From Terrisporobacter sp. (GTDB lineage Bacteria > Bacillota_A > Clostridia > Peptostreptococcales > Peptostreptococcaceae), in assembly GCA_029851945.1 (NCBI GenBank), contig JARKUZ010000076.1, forward strand, positions 1-45,310: 45,310 bases of DNA. The letters are read 5' to 3'. The notes under the pieces were generated by a model, which saw only the letters and a program-made list of their open reading frames with translations, made no database searches and was not told where the DNA came from. Made by a program: the position numbers and the translations under genes. Shown here piece by piece: positions 4,350 through 34,786 of this stretch (positions within the stretch are counted from its first letter, which is position 1; the number at the start of each line of letters is the position of its first letter).

Positions 4350-4493
4350 AAAAAAATCTCTTTCCCGAAAGAAAGAGATTATGTATACGTAATCTTATCT
4401 TCCAGAATTCATCTGTAGGAATTAGCACCTTTGTCGTAATGACCGGTTGCTGGGCTTCATAGGGCCAGTCCCTCCACCTCTCTTGATAAGGAA
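4350..4493 (-). ncRNA. SAM-I (S-box) riboswitch with terminator, controls ECF operon
   Basis: Read on the minus strand, the element opens with CTTATCAAGAGAGGTGGAGG, continues with GGGACTGGCCC and the conserved GAAGCCCAGCAACC, and contains AAGGTGCTAATTCC. It closes with GATAAG, which pairs with the 5' CTTATC to form P1 (4394-4399 with about 4485-4490). This is the S-box consensus. It is followed by a terminator hairpin at 4350-4382 (AATCTCTTTC / GAAAGAGATT plus a T run). SAM binding is expected to favour termination and so shut off the ECF genes when SAM or methionine is plentiful. Confidence 0.95.
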
Positions 4494-19565: not shown

Positions 19566-19589
19566 AGAGTTAATAAATCAAATATAATC

Positions 19590-19808
19590 GGATGAGGATA
19601 ATCTTAGACATTACTTAAATGTAAGGCCGAAGAAGCAAAAGGAAGAACTTAATCTTATTCTTTCTTGAAACTGACAGGCAAAAGGAAGATTATCTGACGA
19701 AGCTTTGGAGAGAACGGATAACCGTCGCCTACGTGGCCATAACCAACTGGCAAAAGGACAGAGTGATAAGACGCTTTTTTAGTGTACTTATTACTCTGTC
19801 CTTTTTTA
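19590..19808 (+). ncRNA. Tandem glycine riboswitch with terminator
   Basis: Aptamer 1 (about 19597-19694) has P1 GATAATCTT/AAGATTATC, GGCCGAAGAAGCAA and CTGACAGGCAAAAGGAAG. Aptamer 2 (about 19700-19766) has TTTGGAGAGAACGG, CGTCGCC and AACTGGCAAAAGGACAGAG. These are the gcvT-element landmarks. The linker is short, as in known tandem glycine switches. The 3' strand of aptamer 2 (AAAAGGACAGAGTGATAAG, 19752-19770) is also the 5' arm of a terminator whose other arm CTTATTACTCTGTCC ends in T6. Ligand binding should therefore prevent the terminator: a glycine-ON switch for the gene that follows. Only weak landmarks distinguish the aptamer 2 P3 region, so its ligand preference is inferred. Confidence 0.88.
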
Positions 19809-25875: not shown

Positions 25876-27660
25876 ATGTTTGAAGGCAATAAAAAATACA
25901 AAGTTATTATAGGGTTACTGGTAATTTGTTTACTAGTATCTTTAGGGGTTAATATTTTAAATCAAAATGGTGTGAAGAAATACAAAAAGGAATATAAGTT
26001 TTATGTAGATTCTTTTGATGAATTTGTGATAGGAGATTTTATAGATGGAGATGTTGATTATGATTTTATGGTAGAGGAATATCAGCATTATATTGATAGT
26101 TACAAAACAGCTATAGATAAAAAAGATATAAATGAATGTGAAAAGATTAGTAGTAACATATCAAATATACGTAGTGATTTAGCAGCCATGAATAACCAAA
26201 TTTTATATTATAAGTTGGAAGAAATAGAAACTGAACAAAATGAAAAAAATATATACGAATATGAAAATATAATTTTTGATAAAAATAAATCAGAAATTGA
26301 AAGTTTAATGAAAGAAGAAAAGTATAATAATGCTTATAATAGTTGTATTAGAATAATATCTGATATTGATAAAATTTCAAATAATCTAATCAAAGTAACT
26401 CAATACGATTTTTCTGAATTTCCAAAAGTAAGGGTATATCTAGATGGTGATAATTTAGAACAAATAATAAATACATCTATTGATAAAACCAGATTTAGGA
26501 TAGTTGAAAAAATAGGAGATAAATATAAAGATATTAAGATAGAAAATCAAGGAACAGTAAAAGAGCAAGGTAATTTAAATTTAGATATAGTAGCAGATGT
26601 TAGTGCTAGTATGTACGATTACTTAGGTGAAGTTAAAATGGCGACTAAAAATTTAGCTGGAAATATTGATATGAGAATGAATAAAGTAGGTTTATTAAGT
26701 TTTTCGGACTATGCTATGAGAAATACTACCTTTACTAACGATAAAGATTTTTTATATAATGAAATAGAAAATTTAAATACCTATAATATGACATCTTTAT
26801 ATGATTCACTGTGTGAGTCAATATCATATACTGCACAACAAAATGGAGCAAAATGTATAGTTGCATTTACAGATGGACTTGATAATAAAAGTATTTATGG
26901 ATATGAAGATGTAATAAATTTAGCTACTAAGTATGAAATTCCTATTTATATTATTGGTATAGGTATTTATGACAGTTCGTATGAACAAATTTTAAATGAT
27001 ATATCATCTAGTACAGGTGGATATTATAAAAATATTAATAACAACAATATTTCTTATGAGATGGAAAACATATACAATGATGTATGTACAAAGCAAAAAT
27101 CACTTTATTATTTAGAATATACAGACCAAATTAAAGATAAATCTGATAAAAGAAATTTATTTATAGAATATAATAGTGAAAATACAGTTGTGCGTAATAA
27201 ACTAAAAGAGACTATTACAGAAAATAATACTTCCGTTGATGAAGTAGGAAAAAAGGCACAAGTAGCAAGCTTTGTAAAAGAATGCAATTATAAATATTTT
27301 GAAGCGTTAAACAATAGAGATGTTAGTATAGTAAATAATTACTATTCAAAATCCAGTGCAGGTAAAGCTTTAGTCAATGAAATTAATTTTCACATAAAAA
27401 ATGATGAAAAAAATAATTATTATTATGAGTATTGTGATTATAAAATAGAAAACATAACTAAAGAAAGTGATAATACTTATAAAGTTACTTTCTCCCAAAA
27501 TTTCACAATAAAATCAAATAATTCTATTATTAGTTCTTATACAAATGCAAGAGCTATAGATAAAGTAGTAGAGATTAATGGTAGATTTTATATTGATGGG
27601 TATGAGCATTTAAGCAATGGTGAAAAAACAGAAAATCTTACTAATAACTTAACAGAATAA
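25876..27660 (+). CDS. Membrane-anchored VWA-domain protein with TcaA-like C-terminal domain
   Basis: This 594-residue protein has a signal anchor at about residues 9-27, then a helical, probably coiled-coil region at about 60-175. A VWA domain spans roughly 235-410 with MIDAS DVSASM, the TSLYDSL loop and FTDGLDN. The last 130 residues (FVKECNYKYFEALNNRD onward) resemble the NTF2-like outer domain found in TcaA-type proteins. It should sit outside the cell and bind a protein or matrix partner. The start follows GGGGG. It is monocistronic, with terminators on both sides. It does not look related to the DUF2201/VWA gene at 9259. Confidence 0.78.
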   Translation: MFEGNKKYKVIIGLLVICLLVSLGVNILNQNGVKKYKKEYKFYVDSFDEFVIGDFIDGDVDYDFMVEEYQHYIDSYKTAIDKKDINECEKISSNISNIRSDLAAMNNQILYYKLEEIETEQNEKNIYEYENIIFDKNKSEIESLMKEEKYNNAYNSCIRIISDIDKISNNLIKVTQYDFSEFPKVRVYLDGDNLEQIINTSIDKTRFRIVEKIGDKYKDIKIENQGTVKEQGNLNLDIVADVSASMYDYLGEVKMATKNLAGNIDMRMNKVGLLSFSDYAMRNTTFTNDKDFLYNEIENLNTYNMTSLYDSLCESISYTAQQNGAKCIVAFTDGLDNKSIYGYEDVINLATKYEIPIYIIGIGIYDSSYEQILNDISSSTGGYYKNINNNNISYEMENIYNDVCTKQKSLYYLEYTDQIKDKSDKRNLFIEYNSENTVVRNKLKETITENNTSVDEVGKKAQVASFVKECNYKYFEALNNRDVSIVNNYYSKSSAGKALVNEINFHIKNDEKNNYYYEYCDYKIENITKESDNTYKVTFSQNFTIKSNNSIISSYTNARAIDKVVEINGRFYIDGYEHLSNGEKTENLTNNLTE

Positions 27661-29680: not shown

Positions 29681-30514
29681 CTATTTATATTTTTTTATTT
29701 CATTGTAATATTCTTTTGGAGTAATACCGAATTCTTTTTTAAAAGCACGGAATAAATTATTATAACTTCCTATTCCACAAATTCGTGCAATGTCTACTAT
29801 AGCATTTCCCTCTTCTATAAGTTTTTTACATAAATCTAATTTAGTTTTTACTATATAACGGTGTAATGTCAAACCTGTAGCTTTTTTGAATTCTCTTGAT
29901 ATATGAAATTTACTAACATAAAATTCTTTTTCAAGATGATCAAGAGAAATTTCTTCTGTAATGTGGTTGTTAATATATGTAAAAATGTCATCAACCAAAA
30001 AAGGCTTGTTTTTTCTTATTTTTTGTTTTGGTTCTGCATATATACACGATCTTAGTACTAAAACTAAAACTATTGACAGCATGCTTTTAATATATAGGTT
30101 ATCAGCAAACTCATTATTTTCTTCTTTTAAGTACACAAGCTTTCTTAATATATTTTTTATTAACATATTAGTTTCTGTATTTGCATCTATTACTGCACAT
30201 TCAAAAGGTACAGTATTAAAACTTCTAACTAAATCTACTTCTTTATCTGATAATTTATTCAGTAATTCTATCGTAATTGATAGTTCATATGTTATAAGAG
30301 GTTGATTTGACTTTGATTCTATATCAATCTCATTATTAGGACTTATTAAAATAATATTGTCAGTACCACATCCTTGAGATTTGTTATTTAGTTTTACATT
30401 ACAATTTCCTGAAAATATACATAATACTTTGTAATATTTATTAGATTTAATTCTTTTAGTTTTTATATTATTAAATTTAATTTCCCTTACAAAATAATCT
30501 TTTTTATCAATCAT
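29681..30514 (-). CDS. AraC-family transcriptional regulator
   Basis: This 277-residue protein has an N-terminal cupin-like sensor region (about 1-120) and a linker containing KQKIRKNKPF. The C-terminal double helix-turn-helix runs from about 178 to the end (ISLDHLEKEFYVSKFHISREF, then IVDIARICGIGSYNNLFRAFKKEFGITPKEY). It is transcribed divergently from the symporter-esterase-reductase operon and is almost certainly its regulator. The ligand could be bilirubin, a bilirubin conjugate or another transported substrate; that is inference. Confidence 0.88.
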   Translation of the reverse strand: MIDKKDYFVREIKFNNIKTKRIKSNKYYKVLCIFSGNCNVKLNNKSQGCGTDNIILISPNNEIDIESKSNQPLITYELSITIELLNKLSDKEVDLVRSFNTVPFECAVIDANTETNMLIKNILRKLVYLKEENNEFADNLYIKSMLSIVLVLVLRSCIYAEPKQKIRKNKPFLVDDIFTYINNHITEEISLDHLEKEFYVSKFHISREFKKATGLTLHRYIVKTKLDLCKKLIEEGNAIVDIARICGIGSYNNLFRAFKKEFGITPKEYYNEIKKYK

Positions 30515-30628
30515 TAATACTCCCCTTTACATAATTTATTAACTAACATATCAATTTTTGTTAATATTATATCAATATATGGATACAATTTTATTTTACT
30601 ATATGAGATAATAAAAATACAAATAAAT

Positions 30629-30658
30629 ATGACAGTTCTTGTCGCATTTACTTATAAT
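30629..30658 (+). promoter_or_regulatory. Promoter of the symporter-esterase-bilR operon
   Basis: -35 ATGACA (30629-30634), an 18-base spacer and -10 TATAAT (30653-30658). An inverted repeat GACA-GTTCT-TGTC starts in the -35 and continues into the spacer (30631-30643), a possible site for the divergent AraC protein. Confidence 0.55.
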
Positions 30659-30692
30659 TTATTTTTAATCAACATTAGGGGGGAGTTATTTT

Positions 30693-32057
30693 ATGCAAAA
30701 ATTTTCAATGAAAGATAAAATCGGTTATACTCTTGGAGACTTAGGGTGTTGCTGTACAGAACAATTTAGAGCTATGTTTTTAACAGTATTTTATACATTA
30801 GTTCTGAAGGTTAATCCTATCCATGTAGGTACAATAATGTTAATAACAAAATTCTGGGATGCTATTAATGATCCTATAATTGGAGCTATTATAGAGTCTC
30901 GTAAAGCAAAACCTGGTAAAAAATTCATACCTTGGATTCGTGCATTTTCTATACCGTGTGCAATATTAATGTGTATCGGATTTGTAAACGTTTCCAATTT
31001 AGATTATGGTTTAAGGTTAGCTTATATTTTAATTACTTATGTTCTATATGAAGCTATGTATACTTGTGTAAATGTTCCATTTGGATCATTATCAAGCGTT
31101 ATGACAGATGATGTTAACCATCGTACAGATTTATCAAGATATAGAAGTTTAGGTGGAACTATTTTTATGACTGTCATAGTTATCGTTGGACCACTATTCT
31201 TATATAAAGATAATGTACCTGTTCCTTCAAACTTTTTACTATTAGCTATTATTTGTGCTTGTGTAAGCGTTTTCTGTTTACAAGTTACATCTGTATGGTG
31301 TAAAGAACGTGTTGAGTTACCTCATATAGAAAATGAAAAATTTAATTACTTTGAAGTATTAAAAAACATTTTAAAAAATAGAGCTTTATTTGGAGTTATA
31401 ATTGCTAGTTTAGTTGGTATGATATCAGCTAGTGTTGTTAATGGATTAAATACTTATTTATTTAAAGATTATTTTGGTAATGTACAAATAATGGCTGTGT
31501 CAGGAATGTTGAGTACAGTTTATTCAATAATTACATTTGTTGGTACTAAATTTGTTGCAAATAAATTTGGTAAAAAAGAATGGTGTATGTATGGTGCTGG
31601 TTTTGCTGCAATAGTATATGGAGTTTTATTCTTCTTCCCAATAGATAACCCAATGATGTTTATAGTAATCAATGGTGTTTGTTATATAGGAGCTTCTGGT
31701 TTCCAAATACTAATTTGGGCTATGGTAAATGATTCAATAGATTATCAAGAGTTACAAACTGGAACTCGTAATGAAAGTATGATTTACTCTACATATTCAT
31801 TTTTTAGAAAGCTTGCTGCTGCTTTAAGTGCAAGTTTAAGTAGTTTTATACTTGCATTTATAGGATACAACGTACATGCTTCAACTCAAACTGCAGAAGT
31901 TGTTTCGCATCTTTGGAAAGCGTATACAGGGATTTATTCAGGGGGATATATAATAGCAATCTTAGCATTATTCTTTATATATCCTTTAAGTAAGAAAAAA
32001 ACTCAAGAAATGTTAGAAGAATTATCAATCAAGAGAAAAAACATGAAGAATGTTTAA
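30693..32057 (+). CDS. GPH-family (MelB/UidB-type) cation symporter
   Basis: This 454-residue protein has 12 predicted helices. It begins KDKIGYTLGDLGCCCTEQFRA, with LITKFWDAINDPIIGAIIESR at about 46-66, the MelB-type Asp-containing helix II motif, and later GFQILIWAMVNDSIDYQELQTGTRNE, the GPH signature. The GPH family imports glycosides, pentosides and hexuronides (for example glucuronides through UidB) with a cation. The start follows GGGGGGAG. It is first in the operon with an alpha/beta hydrolase and a bilirubin-reductase-like enzyme. A glucuronide or other conjugate is a reasonable substrate but not proven. Confidence 0.87.
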   Translation: MQKFSMKDKIGYTLGDLGCCCTEQFRAMFLTVFYTLVLKVNPIHVGTIMLITKFWDAINDPIIGAIIESRKAKPGKKFIPWIRAFSIPCAILMCIGFVNVSNLDYGLRLAYILITYVLYEAMYTCVNVPFGSLSSVMTDDVNHRTDLSRYRSLGGTIFMTVIVIVGPLFLYKDNVPVPSNFLLLAIICACVSVFCLQVTSVWCKERVELPHIENEKFNYFEVLKNILKNRALFGVIIASLVGMISASVVNGLNTYLFKDYFGNVQIMAVSGMLSTVYSIITFVGTKFVANKFGKKEWCMYGAGFAAIVYGVLFFFPIDNPMMFIVINGVCYIGASGFQILIWAMVNDSIDYQELQTGTRNESMIYSTYSFFRKLAAALSASLSSFILAFIGYNVHASTQTAEVVSHLWKAYTGIYSGGYIIAILALFFIYPLSKKKTQEMLEELSIKRKNMKNV

Positions 32058-32084
32058 AATATAGTAAGTTATAGGAGAGCAAAA

Positions 32085-32846
32085 ATGGTTAAATTAATAG
32101 AAATAAAAAATCGAAAAAATAAAATATTAAGAGGGGTACTTACTCTTCCTGATAATATAGAAAATCCTCTTATAGTGTTAAATCTACATGGATTTGGAGG
32201 AAGTATGTCAGGGTATAAGTATGCACATACTCATTTGTCAAGAGTACTTGAATCTGATGGTTTTGGTTGTGCTAGGTTTGATTTTTATGGTTGCGGTGAA
32301 AGTGATGGAGAATTTGAAGAAATGACTTTCACTGGACTTATAGAAGACACGATAGATGTATACAACTATCTAATTGATTCTAAAGTAACAACTGCTGACA
32401 GAATCATATTATCTGGTCATAGTATGGGTGGATATGTAGCTTCTTGTGTAGCTCCAAAGTTACAACCTATTGGTCTAATTCTTATGTGCCCTGGTGGTGG
32501 TATGTGGTATGGTTGTAAAGAACGTGCTGATGGATTAAAGGCACAATCTATGCAATATGCTGATATGGAAGGTTTAAAATTTAGTATTGATTTTAATTAT
32601 GATTTATACAACTATGAGCCATTTTCTAATGCAATGGGTTATGACAAAGATGTCATAATTATAAGAGGTACTGAAGATAAATTAGTTGATAATCGTGCTT
32701 GTCAGGCTTATTTAAATTGTTATAACAGTGACAAGTCAACGTATGTAGAAGTTGAAGGCGGAGATCATAATTTCGCCAATATAAAAGCTAAAAAAGAATG
32801 TGAAGATGCAATCATTGATTTTTGCAAATTAATTAATAATAAATAA
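32085..32846 (+). CDS. Alpha/beta hydrolase (esterase-like)
   Basis: This 253-residue alpha/beta hydrolase of the cinnamoyl/feruloyl-esterase-like kind has oxyanion LHGFGGS at 35-41, nucleophile elbow GHSMGG with Ser113, acid Asp198 in RGTEDKLVD and catalytic His228 in EGGDHNF. It has no signal peptide, so it works in the cytoplasm on an imported substrate. It lies between the symporter and the reductase with spacing under 30 bases. Family members cleave aryl or acyl esters. In this operon it could split an ester-linked conjugate, such as a bilirubin acyl-glucuronide, before reduction. That idea is inference. Confidence 0.85.
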   Translation: MVKLIEIKNRKNKILRGVLTLPDNIENPLIVLNLHGFGGSMSGYKYAHTHLSRVLESDGFGCARFDFYGCGESDGEFEEMTFTGLIEDTIDVYNYLIDSKVTTADRIILSGHSMGGYVASCVAPKLQPIGLILMCPGGGMWYGCKERADGLKAQSMQYADMEGLKFSIDFNYDLYNYEPFSNAMGYDKDVIIIRGTEDKLVDNRACQAYLNCYNSDKSTYVEVEGGDHNFANIKAKKECEDAIIDFCKLINNK

Positions 32847-32863
32847 ACTAAGGGGGAATTAAT

Positions 32864-34786
32864 ATGAAACTTTTAGAAAAAATCAATATAGGAAATATTA
32901 CCCTAAAAAACAGAGTTATGTTTCCTCCGCTGACTACTGGCTATGAAGGTAGAGATGGTAGTTTAACTAAACAAAGTATTGAATTTTATGAAAGATTAGC
33001 AAAAGGTGGTGTTTCATACATAGTAATTGGTGATGTTTCTCCAATTAATGGCTTTACTTCTACACCTAAATTATATGACGATAGCCAAATAGATGGTTTC
33101 AGAAAATTATGTGATTCAATACATAAATATGGAGCGAAAGTATCTGCTCAGATATTTCATCCAGAGTATGATTGTGATGCTATAAATAAGATAGTTGCTA
33201 CTGGTGATATGAAAGCTGTAAGAGAAAAACTACATCATGATATGCAACACTTCGTAAATGAGGTTAGTGAGGAAGGTCTAAAAGATATCATCGATAAGAT
33301 GTGTAATTGTGCAATCCGTGCTCAAAAAGCTGGTGTTGATATTATTCAAATACATGGAGATAGATTAGTAGGTTCATTATGTAGTACTATATTAAATAAA
33401 AGAAATGATAAATTTGGGGGAACTCTAGAAAACAGAACTAGATTTGCACTAGAACTTGTAAGAGCATTAAAAAAAGCTGTTCCTGATATGCCTATTGATT
33501 ATAAATTTTCAGTTGTTACACCTGAAAGAGGTAAAGGTGGAATCAATCTAGATGAAGCACCTACATTTGCTAAATGGTTAGAAGAAGCTGGAGTTGATAT
33601 GCTTCATGTGGCTCAGGCAAACCATACTGGTAATATGGCGGATACTATTCCTCCAATGGGTGTACAGCCTTATGGATTCTTTGTTGATATTGCTGCTCAA
33701 ATAAAGAAATCAGTAAATATTCCAGTTAGTACTGTTGGTAGAATATTTAATCCTAAAATGGCAGAAAGTATCCTAGAAGCTGATAAGGCAGATATAATTG
33801 GACTTGGTAGAATTCTACTTGCAGATCCTGATTGGGTTAACAAAGTAAAAGAGAACAAATTTGAAGATATTCGTGAATGTATATCTTGTAATAAAGGATG
33901 TACTGACAATATTCAAAACCGTAAGTTTTTAAGCTGCATACTAAATGCTGAAAATGGATATGAAGGAACTAGAAAAATCACTGAAGCTGTAACTAAGAAA
34001 AAAGTTATAGTAGTAGGAGGAGGACCTGCAGGGCTTGAAGCTGCACGTGTAGCAAGCTTAAAAGGTCATAGTGTTACTTTATTTGATGAAAATACATCTT
34101 TAGGAGGTCAATTAAATTTAGCTTGTATTCCTCCTAGAAAAAATGAAATTCGTAGAGCTATTAGATTTTTAACACATTCTGTAACTTCTCAAAATGTAGA
34201 ATTGCGACTTGGGAAAAAAGTAACTCAAGAAGATATATTAACTTTAAATCCAGATGTTGTATTAGTTGCAGTAGGAGCAAATAATTTTATACCAAGTATA
34301 GATGGTTATAATAAGCAAATGGTATGTGATTCATGGAAAATTTTAAGTGGTGAACAACAAGTATTTGGTAATATTGCTGTTATTGGTGGAGGTATGGTAG
34401 GTTGTGAAGTAGCTGAGCACTTATGCCTTCAAGAAGGAAATAAAGTTTCTATAATTGAAATGGATAATAGTATAGCTAAGGGTGAAAGTAGTACTATACT
34501 TCCGACTTTAATGGAAAATTTCACTAGAAACAATGTTGAAATCTACACTAATCACAAAGTTAATAAAATAGATAAAGAATGTATAATTTGTGAAAATAAT
34601 AATAATGAAATAAAAATACCTTGTGATTACGTAGTTATGGCAGTTGGTGCTAGACCTAATAGCTTTGATGTTGATAAACTATTAGAAAATAATATTAAAG
34701 TTGTTAAAATAGGTGATTGTAAAGATAGAGCAGCTGATATTGAAAATGCAATTAAAACTGCTTATGATGCTGCTAATGAAATATAA
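32864..34786 (+). CDS. bilR: Probable bilirubin reductase BilR (OYE-FeS-FAD enzyme)
   Basis: This 640-residue protein has the 2,4-dienoyl-CoA reductase architecture. An OYE-type FMN barrel spans about 1-335, a 4Fe-4S motif has Cys339, 342, 346 and 358, and a FAD-binding GGGPAG lies at 385-390. A second dinucleotide fold has GGGMVG at 508-513. In the active-site loop, where most relatives have HxxHGY or HxxNGY, it has His164-Gly-Asp-Arg167. I recall HGDR at 164-167 as the signature of BilR, which reduces bilirubin to urobilinogen, and the position agrees exactly. BaiCD/BaiH and enoate reductases have the HAAH-type motif instead. It is last in the operon. As I recall, some species carry a flavodoxin-like BilS partner; none is seen here. 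The alternative is an unknown ene-reductase of the same clade. Confidence 0.78.
   Translation: MKLLEKINIGNITLKNRVMFPPLTTGYEGRDGSLTKQSIEFYERLAKGGVSYIVIGDVSPINGFTSTPKLYDDSQIDGFRKLCDSIHKYGAKVSAQIFHPEYDCDAINKIVATGDMKAVREKLHHDMQHFVNEVSEEGLKDIIDKMCNCAIRAQKAGVDIIQIHGDRLVGSLCSTILNKRNDKFGGTLENRTRFALELVRALKKAVPDMPIDYKFSVVTPERGKGGINLDEAPTFAKWLEEAGVDMLHVAQANHTGNMADTIPPMGVQPYGFFVDIAAQIKKSVNIPVSTVGRIFNPKMAESILEADKADIIGLGRILLADPDWVNKVKENKFEDIRECISCNKGCTDNIQNRKFLSCILNAENGYEGTRKITEAVTKKKVIVVGGGPAGLEAARVASLKGHSVTLFDENTSLGGQLNLACIPPRKNEIRRAIRFLTHSVTSQNVELRLGKKVTQEDILTLNPDVVLVAVGANNFIPSIDGYNKQMVCDSWKILSGEQQVFGNIAVIGGGMVGCEVAEHLCLQEGNKVSIIEMDNSIAKGESSTILPTLMENFTRNNVEIYTNHKVNKIDKECIICENNNNEIKIPCDYVVMAVGARPNSFDVDKLLENNIKVVKIGDCKDRAADIENAIKTAYDAANEI

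Follow-up and report, generated by a model that had tools for sequence, protein, structure and literature searches.

In a 45,310-nucleotide stretch of Terrisporobacter sp. DNA (contig JARKUZ010000076.1 of assembly GCA_029851945.1, analysed over its full length and called the window below), an AraC-family regulator gene stands divergent from tightly spaced genes for a GPH-type symporter, an alpha/beta hydrolase and the bilirubin reductase BilR. Judged by their recurrence in other genomes the four genes form one unit, and we suggest, with nearly as much confidence as doubt, that it is a self-contained, inducible bile-pigment cassette whose products would sense, import, de-esterify and reduce a pigment conjugate. 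The AraC and symporter genes are 178 bp apart, with the divergent promoter between them; 27 bp separate symporter and hydrolase, and 17 bp hydrolase and bilR. This layout had been read from the letters alone in a first-pass annotation, and open reading frame (ORF) coordinates and family matches agree with it, as residue checks do with its hydrolase triad Ser113-Asp198-His228 (within a GHSMG motif at residues 111-115 for the serine) and its 640-residue flavoenzyme with HGDR at 164-167.

The full cassette was found at nine loci: the window, L001 (C. thermobutyricum), L002, L003 (R. timonensis), L005, L021 ('Lactobacillus rogosae'), L126, L131 and L132. Gene order is identical at all nine with operon gaps of at most 60 bp, and the minimum identity to the window is 67% for the symporter, 47% for the hydrolase, 57% for BilR and 41% for AraC, whose homologue is divergent and 41-85% identical in the eight other cassettes. 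Over the 36 pairs of loci the four genes diverge in step, their identities being correlated at 0.93-0.96. In an all-against-all comparison, the ORFs that flank the cassette in the window, L001, L003 and L021 (one partial ORF) have no family in common. A chance neighbourhood is ruled out, as the four genes recur together in the same order elsewhere. L131 and L132 are in two genomes of the family of genome G007, the contig of L132 ending inside bilR, and L126 is on a 93,621-bp circular plasmid of Subdoligranulum variabile (OY725841.1, 4758-9923), so that the cassette could move between species. At the contig end of a Terrisporobacter metagenome-assembled genome (L093) AraC and symporter are likewise arranged, with 90.8% identity over 2273 bases.

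Further searches started from the symporter (E <= 1e-100) or the hydrolase (E <= 1e-45). In the family of G001 3 of 206 genomes have a symporter orthologue, as does one of 391 in the class of G003, and all four orthologues adjoin bilR; one further symporter above the threshold, of 41% identity, is in a uronate locus of G005. In the G007 family three of 397 genomes matched the hydrolase, and all three have full cassettes. In the family of R. timonensis this BilR is present in 3 of 71 genomes, with a full cassette in G003, a cassette split over contigs in G004, and a reduced form in G054 that is discussed below.

The window reductase is, by family model and tree, a member of the BilR family. With the model NF045599, 'bilirubin reductase, long form', it reaches 1033.8 bits (cut-off 750), and with NF045592 548 bits (cut-off 425); a bile-acid reductase of the BaiCD type is ruled out at 487.7 bits against a cut-off of 825. 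Relatives for comparison came from a first scan with one genome per species, in which the best 80 of 85 relatives are loci L001-L080, and HGDR is present in the top reductase match of all 80. In a midpoint-rooted tree of the barrel domain with 58 selected rows, the 50 HGDR rows cluster at 100/99, separate from eight BilV-type and other old yellow enzyme (OYE) rows, the program having warned of long branches between the short forms and these eight. Within the HGDR rows a branch of 41 (95/91) holds both the insertion form, including that of Faecalibacillus intestinalis (L044), and full-length proteins that lack the insertion, the window protein among them; its sister is the short form with nine rows, of which L102, L105 and L109 are taken as Clostridioides. 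Membership of the BilR clade had been set beforehand as a test of the annotation, and score and tree place both uphold it. The accompanying claim that HGDR at 164-167 marks the clade does not survive, and the numbering was dropped as a mark, since insertion-type BilR carries HGDR at about 189-197 of its own numbering.

Bilirubin-reducing activity is published for the short enzymes of C. difficile and C. symbiosum and for R. gnavus and F. intestinalis (PMC10769871, PMC13252198), and for the window-type form it is predicted. The prediction is supported by C. perfringens, since its BilR (P0184) is 88% identical to that of the window, and is placed in the same seven-row group (91/95), and the species is a reported bilirubin reducer with bilR in 137 of 315 genomes (PMC10769871). 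Protein-level matches in the same species are 84% identical to the window hydrolase (P0006) and 87% to the symporter (P0258). Reductases 97% identical to that of the window carry the name Terrisporobacter. Insertion-less BilR of 58-64% identity also occurs at loci that lack the cassette and have hardly any neighbours in common (L007, L008, L010-L015, L017 and L018), the hosts of cassette-less forms being Lysobacter (with two copies in L. antarcticus), Flavobacterium, Bizionia, Psychrobacter and Acinetobacter harbinensis.

With regard to the regulator, a tandem ATATCAATTTTTG repeat with a 21-bp period can be aligned across seven promoters; it is a conserved putative operator that in the four distant cassettes was judged by eye. 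The pattern is matched once in the window and never in 100 shuffles. Six genomes contain exactly one match each, at the corresponding locus, and none to the reversed control; as the pattern was derived from these promoters the six matches are there by construction, and what is new is that no seventh appears at up to three mismatches. In G054 the AraC gene and the operator directly face bilR, with the operator immediately before it. A regulator that seems devoted to one locus, and stays beside bilR even where the symporter and hydrolase genes have no place between them, may be a sensor of the reductase's substrate.

The symporter passes the general gph model TIGR00792 (276.9 bits, cut-off 231.35). 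In a tree of 32 rows (28 different) the cassette symporters form a 10-row clade at 100/100, which joins symporters of G001, G002, G005 and G007 at 100/100 to give 14 rows. The nearest paralogues in G001, G002 and G007 are in loci with a recognised beta-glucuronidase, and in G001, G002 and G005 a uronate isomerase gene adjoins the paralogue. The first-pass link to glucuronide carriers is thus borne out by the tree and the paralogue loci, but not by the GusB equivalog model PRK09848, against which the protein scores 196.5 bits, well under the cut-off of 528. The conserved aspartates of helix II, which form the cation site in MelB, are present as D56 and D60, common to eight and nine respectively of nine other symporters compared. 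The ten cassette symporters also have private charges in common that are absent from the nine others, including E23 and R26 in the region of the first helix, which may adapt them to another substrate, one that is bulkier and anionic. A 604-aa symporter named Faecalibacterium prausnitzii (P0243) has a stretch of its own repeated, by duplication or an assembly fault.

In the case of the hydrolase, S113 and D198 are present in all 109 aligned sequences and H228 in 99%. Where a related monoacylglycerol lipase has Glu43 the family has Gly43 (109/109), followed by Lys or Arg45 in 108 of the 109. Human esterases able to cleave acyl-glucuronides are known (PMC8793843), and a bilirubin acyl-glycoside is a plausible substrate here.

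From these data the cassette could work as follows. AraC would sense the bile pigment or its conjugate, bind the tandem operator and activate the symporter-hydrolase-bilR transcript. The symporter would bring in, together with a cation, a water-soluble bilirubin acyl-glycoside, that is a glucuronide or possibly a glucoside or xyloside, and the serine hydrolase would then split the ester between the pigment propionate and the sugar. This would free the sugar for catabolism, and would also serve where a conjugate is refractory to beta-glucuronidase or a cell has no such enzyme. BilR would finally reduce the methine bridges of the pigment, so disposing of electrons. An extra esterase could be of use because acyl migration turns bilirubin glucuronides into isomers that beta-glucuronidase is not known to cut, and because some hosts make bilirubin glucosides and xylosides, which are also esters. 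Sequence comparison establishes the four-gene unit, the membership of BilR, the conservation of the operator and the kinship of symporter and hydrolase; the AraC ligand, the direction of transport and the order of the steps are inferred, and bilirubin acyl-glycosides are in our judgement the best candidate substrates for symporter and hydrolase alike.

A more far-reaching proposal, in which we have more doubt than belief, is that gut Bacillota own a mobile operon for taking up bilirubin acyl-glycosides intact, cleaving them by an esterase instead of beta-glucuronidase and reducing the pigment inside the cell under a dedicated AraC protein, and that the same cassette underlies the strain-specific reduction of bilirubin by C. 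perfringens. If this were true, acyl-migrated and non-glucuronide conjugates would be usable and species without beta-glucuronidase could take part.

Several observations weigh against the bile-pigment cassette as we have drawn it. The first scan gave 21 insertion-less loci (L001-L021), of which five have the full cassette (L001, L002, L003, L005 and L021) and 13 have bilR without it, two of these with less than 2 kb upstream; for the rest, L016 in Collinsella has hydrolase and bilR only, L004 has a contig that begins within bilR, with AraC and symporter at the end of a second contig from that genome, and L006 has too little upstream DNA to judge. At the 59 other loci (L022-L080, insertion-type) no symporter plus hydrolase was found, the flanking DNA being short for some. 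The cassette label needs six changes on the BilR tree, a number equally low in 25 of 500 shuffles, which implies frequent loss or transfer, and G054 retains AraC facing bilR with no symporter and hydrolase between them. The operator is not striking in single promoters: in a direct-repeat test, which takes the best repeat at any spacing of 17-25 (in several promoters not the operator), only 3 of 11 had three or fewer shuffles per 100 scoring as high (29 for the window and 3, 0, 8, 0, 9, 21, 33, 5, 97 and 23 for the others), so that the operator claim rests on the seven-promoter alignment. E. coli GusB falls outside the 14-row symporter clade, and the nearest solved relatives of the hydrolase are a monoacylglycerol lipase and feruloyl esterases.

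The remaining difficulty concerns beta-glucuronidase, for which we searched ten genomes for glycoside hydrolase family 2 (GH2, PF02836) only, with 31 matches of which 14 were scanned with NCBIfam (including 3 of 12 in G607 and none of the one in G006). A recognised beta-glucuronidase is present in four of eight cassette genomes, with scores of 911.5 (G001), 921.0 (G002), 908.4 (G004) and 809.0 bits (G007) against a cut-off of 544, and in such a genome the esterase is not needed for ordinary deconjugation; the beta-glucuronidase of C. perfringens has moreover been reported to deconjugate bilirubin in pig bile (PMC12113761). GH2 proteins of G003 and G054 pass the beta-galactosidase cut-off. The other eight of the 14 scanned proteins are under every cut-off; they include one protein of G196 that is cut by a contig end and four, in G005, G196, G054 and G607, that resemble the beta-glucuronidase LacZ4 (551-581 bits, cut-off 950). 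In G005, G196 and G607 no scanned GH2 protein is above a cut-off, but the LacZ4-like proteins could be distant beta-glucuronidases. The cassette thus occurs both with and without a recognised GH2 beta-glucuronidase. Deconjugation is the weak link of the reading we favour, as beta-glucuronidase, where present, could do that step.

The strongest alternative, which we consider rather unlikely, is a bile-pigment cassette in which deconjugation is by the cell's own or a foreign beta-glucuronidase, the symporter serves to carry unconjugated pigment or to export what BilR has reduced, and the hydrolase acts on other pigment or bile-lipid esters. The closest symporter paralogues, however, belong to glucuronide and uronate loci, and the hydrolase family has Gly43 in place of the Glu43 of the lipase. 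R. timonensis (G003), furthermore, carries two uronate isomerase genes besides the full cassette, and its sole GH2 match is the beta-galactosidase.

The kinship of the hydrolase suggests another alternative, a cassette for plant-phenolic esters, with a symporter that imports a feruloyl or caffeoyl sugar or quinate ester, a hydrolase that frees the acid and a flavoenzyme that reduces its double bond. The top fold matches of the window hydrolase include feruloyl, cinnamoyl and chlorogenate esterases, and the protein has the fold and triad to be expected of such an enzyme; ene-reduction of hydroxycinnamate-type acids is a common electron sink in anaerobes. It is made improbable by the reductase, which is far above the BilR cut-off and inside the HGDR clade, and has the residues D166 and R167 that are required for bilirubin reduction (PMC10769871), and by the reported bilirubin reduction of C. 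perfringens with its closely similar enzyme. Least probable of all is a cassette for some other linear tetrapyrrole such as dietary phyllobilins or algal bilins, with methyl or sugar esters removed by the hydrolase, for although BilR is reported to reduce biliverdin too (PMC13252198), and so accepts more than one bilin, and insertion-less BilR is also found in Lysobacter, Flavobacterium, Psychrobacter and Acinetobacter, the full cassette is confined to Bacillota among the loci examined, with no tie to plant or algal pigments. With regard to the uptake-deconjugation-reduction module of the first-pass annotation, then, the conserved unit and the BilR assignment stand, and the glucuronide link of the symporter stands in part. 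The annotation had also named a lack of conservation of symporter and hydrolase next to bilR as grounds for refutation, and this test too it survived, as both are conserved there in a set of related genomes, if not at every bilR locus.

The features of the locus are given in Table 1. Promoter and terminator consensus scans gave counts close to those in shuffled sequence (40 against 42.4 and 1 against 1.2 respectively) and we thus claim no -35/-10 boxes. Elsewhere in the window there is a 594-aa protein with von Willebrand A and TcaA-type domains upstream of the cassette (25876-27660), and Rfam matches to glycine and S-adenosylmethionine (SAM) riboswitches at 19588-19765 (+) and 4392-4492 (-) respectively.

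Table 1. Coordinates in the window of the cassette genes and of associated sites
Feature	Position	Strand	Remarks
AraC-family regulator gene	29681-30514	-	277 aa; HTH_18/HTH_AraC; divergent from operon
Putative AraC operator	30548-30581	+	half-sites ATATCAATTTTTG / ATATCAATATATG, direct repeat 21 bp apart; seven-promoter alignment
GPH-type cation symporter gene	30693-32057	+	454 aa; MFS_2; putative conjugate importer
Alpha/beta hydrolase gene with lid, putative bile-pigment ester hydrolase	32085-32846	+	253 aa; Hydrolase_4
Catalytic Ser113 codon of hydrolase	32421-32423	+	other triad codons Asp198 32676-32678, His228 32766-32768
bilR, bilirubin reductase long form without insertion	32864-34786	+	640 aa; Oxidored_FMN + Pyr_redox_2
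HGDR motif, BilR residues 164-167	33353-33364	+	sequence check

The cassette may bear on the steps that precede bilirubin reduction, namely the entry of the conjugated pigment into bacteria and its deconjugation, and the BilR paper calls for experiments with bilirubin diglucuronide (PMC10769871). The cassette would provide four defined genes with which such work could examine uptake, a possible esterase route in parallel to beta-glucuronidase and a candidate sensor of bile pigment, and it has a bearing on the enterohepatic circulation of bilirubin and on neonatal jaundice. We found no published description of an AraC-symporter-hydrolase-bilR module, supplements and the ISME J paper on the BilR clade (wrae242) being outside the scope of the search. 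The main text of the BilR paper (PMC10769871) has no mention of a transporter, symporter, AraC, esterase, uptake or permease, and that of the BilV preprint (PMC13252198), which surveys bilR neighbourhoods, none of a hydrolase, transporter, AraC or esterase.

The nearest known systems are the bilQRS and bilR operons of Hall et al. 2024 (PMC10769871), which have a BilR with HGDR of the same family model and clade. As described there, bilQRS consists of a MarR-type bilQ, bilR and a flavodoxin-like bilS, whereas the window has AraC, symporter and hydrolase with a full-length insertion-less BilR, and neither bilQ nor bilS was found beside its bilR. At L020, in Acetivibrio ethanolgignens, a MarR gene (1395-1820) is directly upstream of bilR, as is of interest given that bilQ is a MarR gene. 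In the BilR tree L020 is the sister of the cassette-bearing L021; closely related BilR proteins are found by turns in a bilQ-like and in an AraC context. The bilR-bilV operons of the preprint (PMC13252198) share the BilR clade, and at L061, L063 and L064 AraC genes, 33-36% identical to that of the window, are near pairs of BilR and a second flavoenzyme. However the second gene of those operons is for another flavoenzyme with an AHAH motif, and there is no symporter-hydrolase pair in the DNA available for the three loci.

The hydrolase shares its fold, helix-hairpin-helix lid and triad with the Thermoanaerobacter monoacylglycerol lipase and with feruloyl esterases (PMC10682391), with 33-34% identity to the lipase, from which it differs at Glu43 and in the basic residue that follows at position 45. 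The loci for glucuronide utilisation, with a GPH symporter, a beta-glucuronidase and glucuronate enzymes, resemble the cassette in their symporter family and in the probable import of a glycoside. They differ in that the window has an ester hydrolase in place of the glycosidase and a pigment reductase in addition, and the cassette symporters form a clade of their own.

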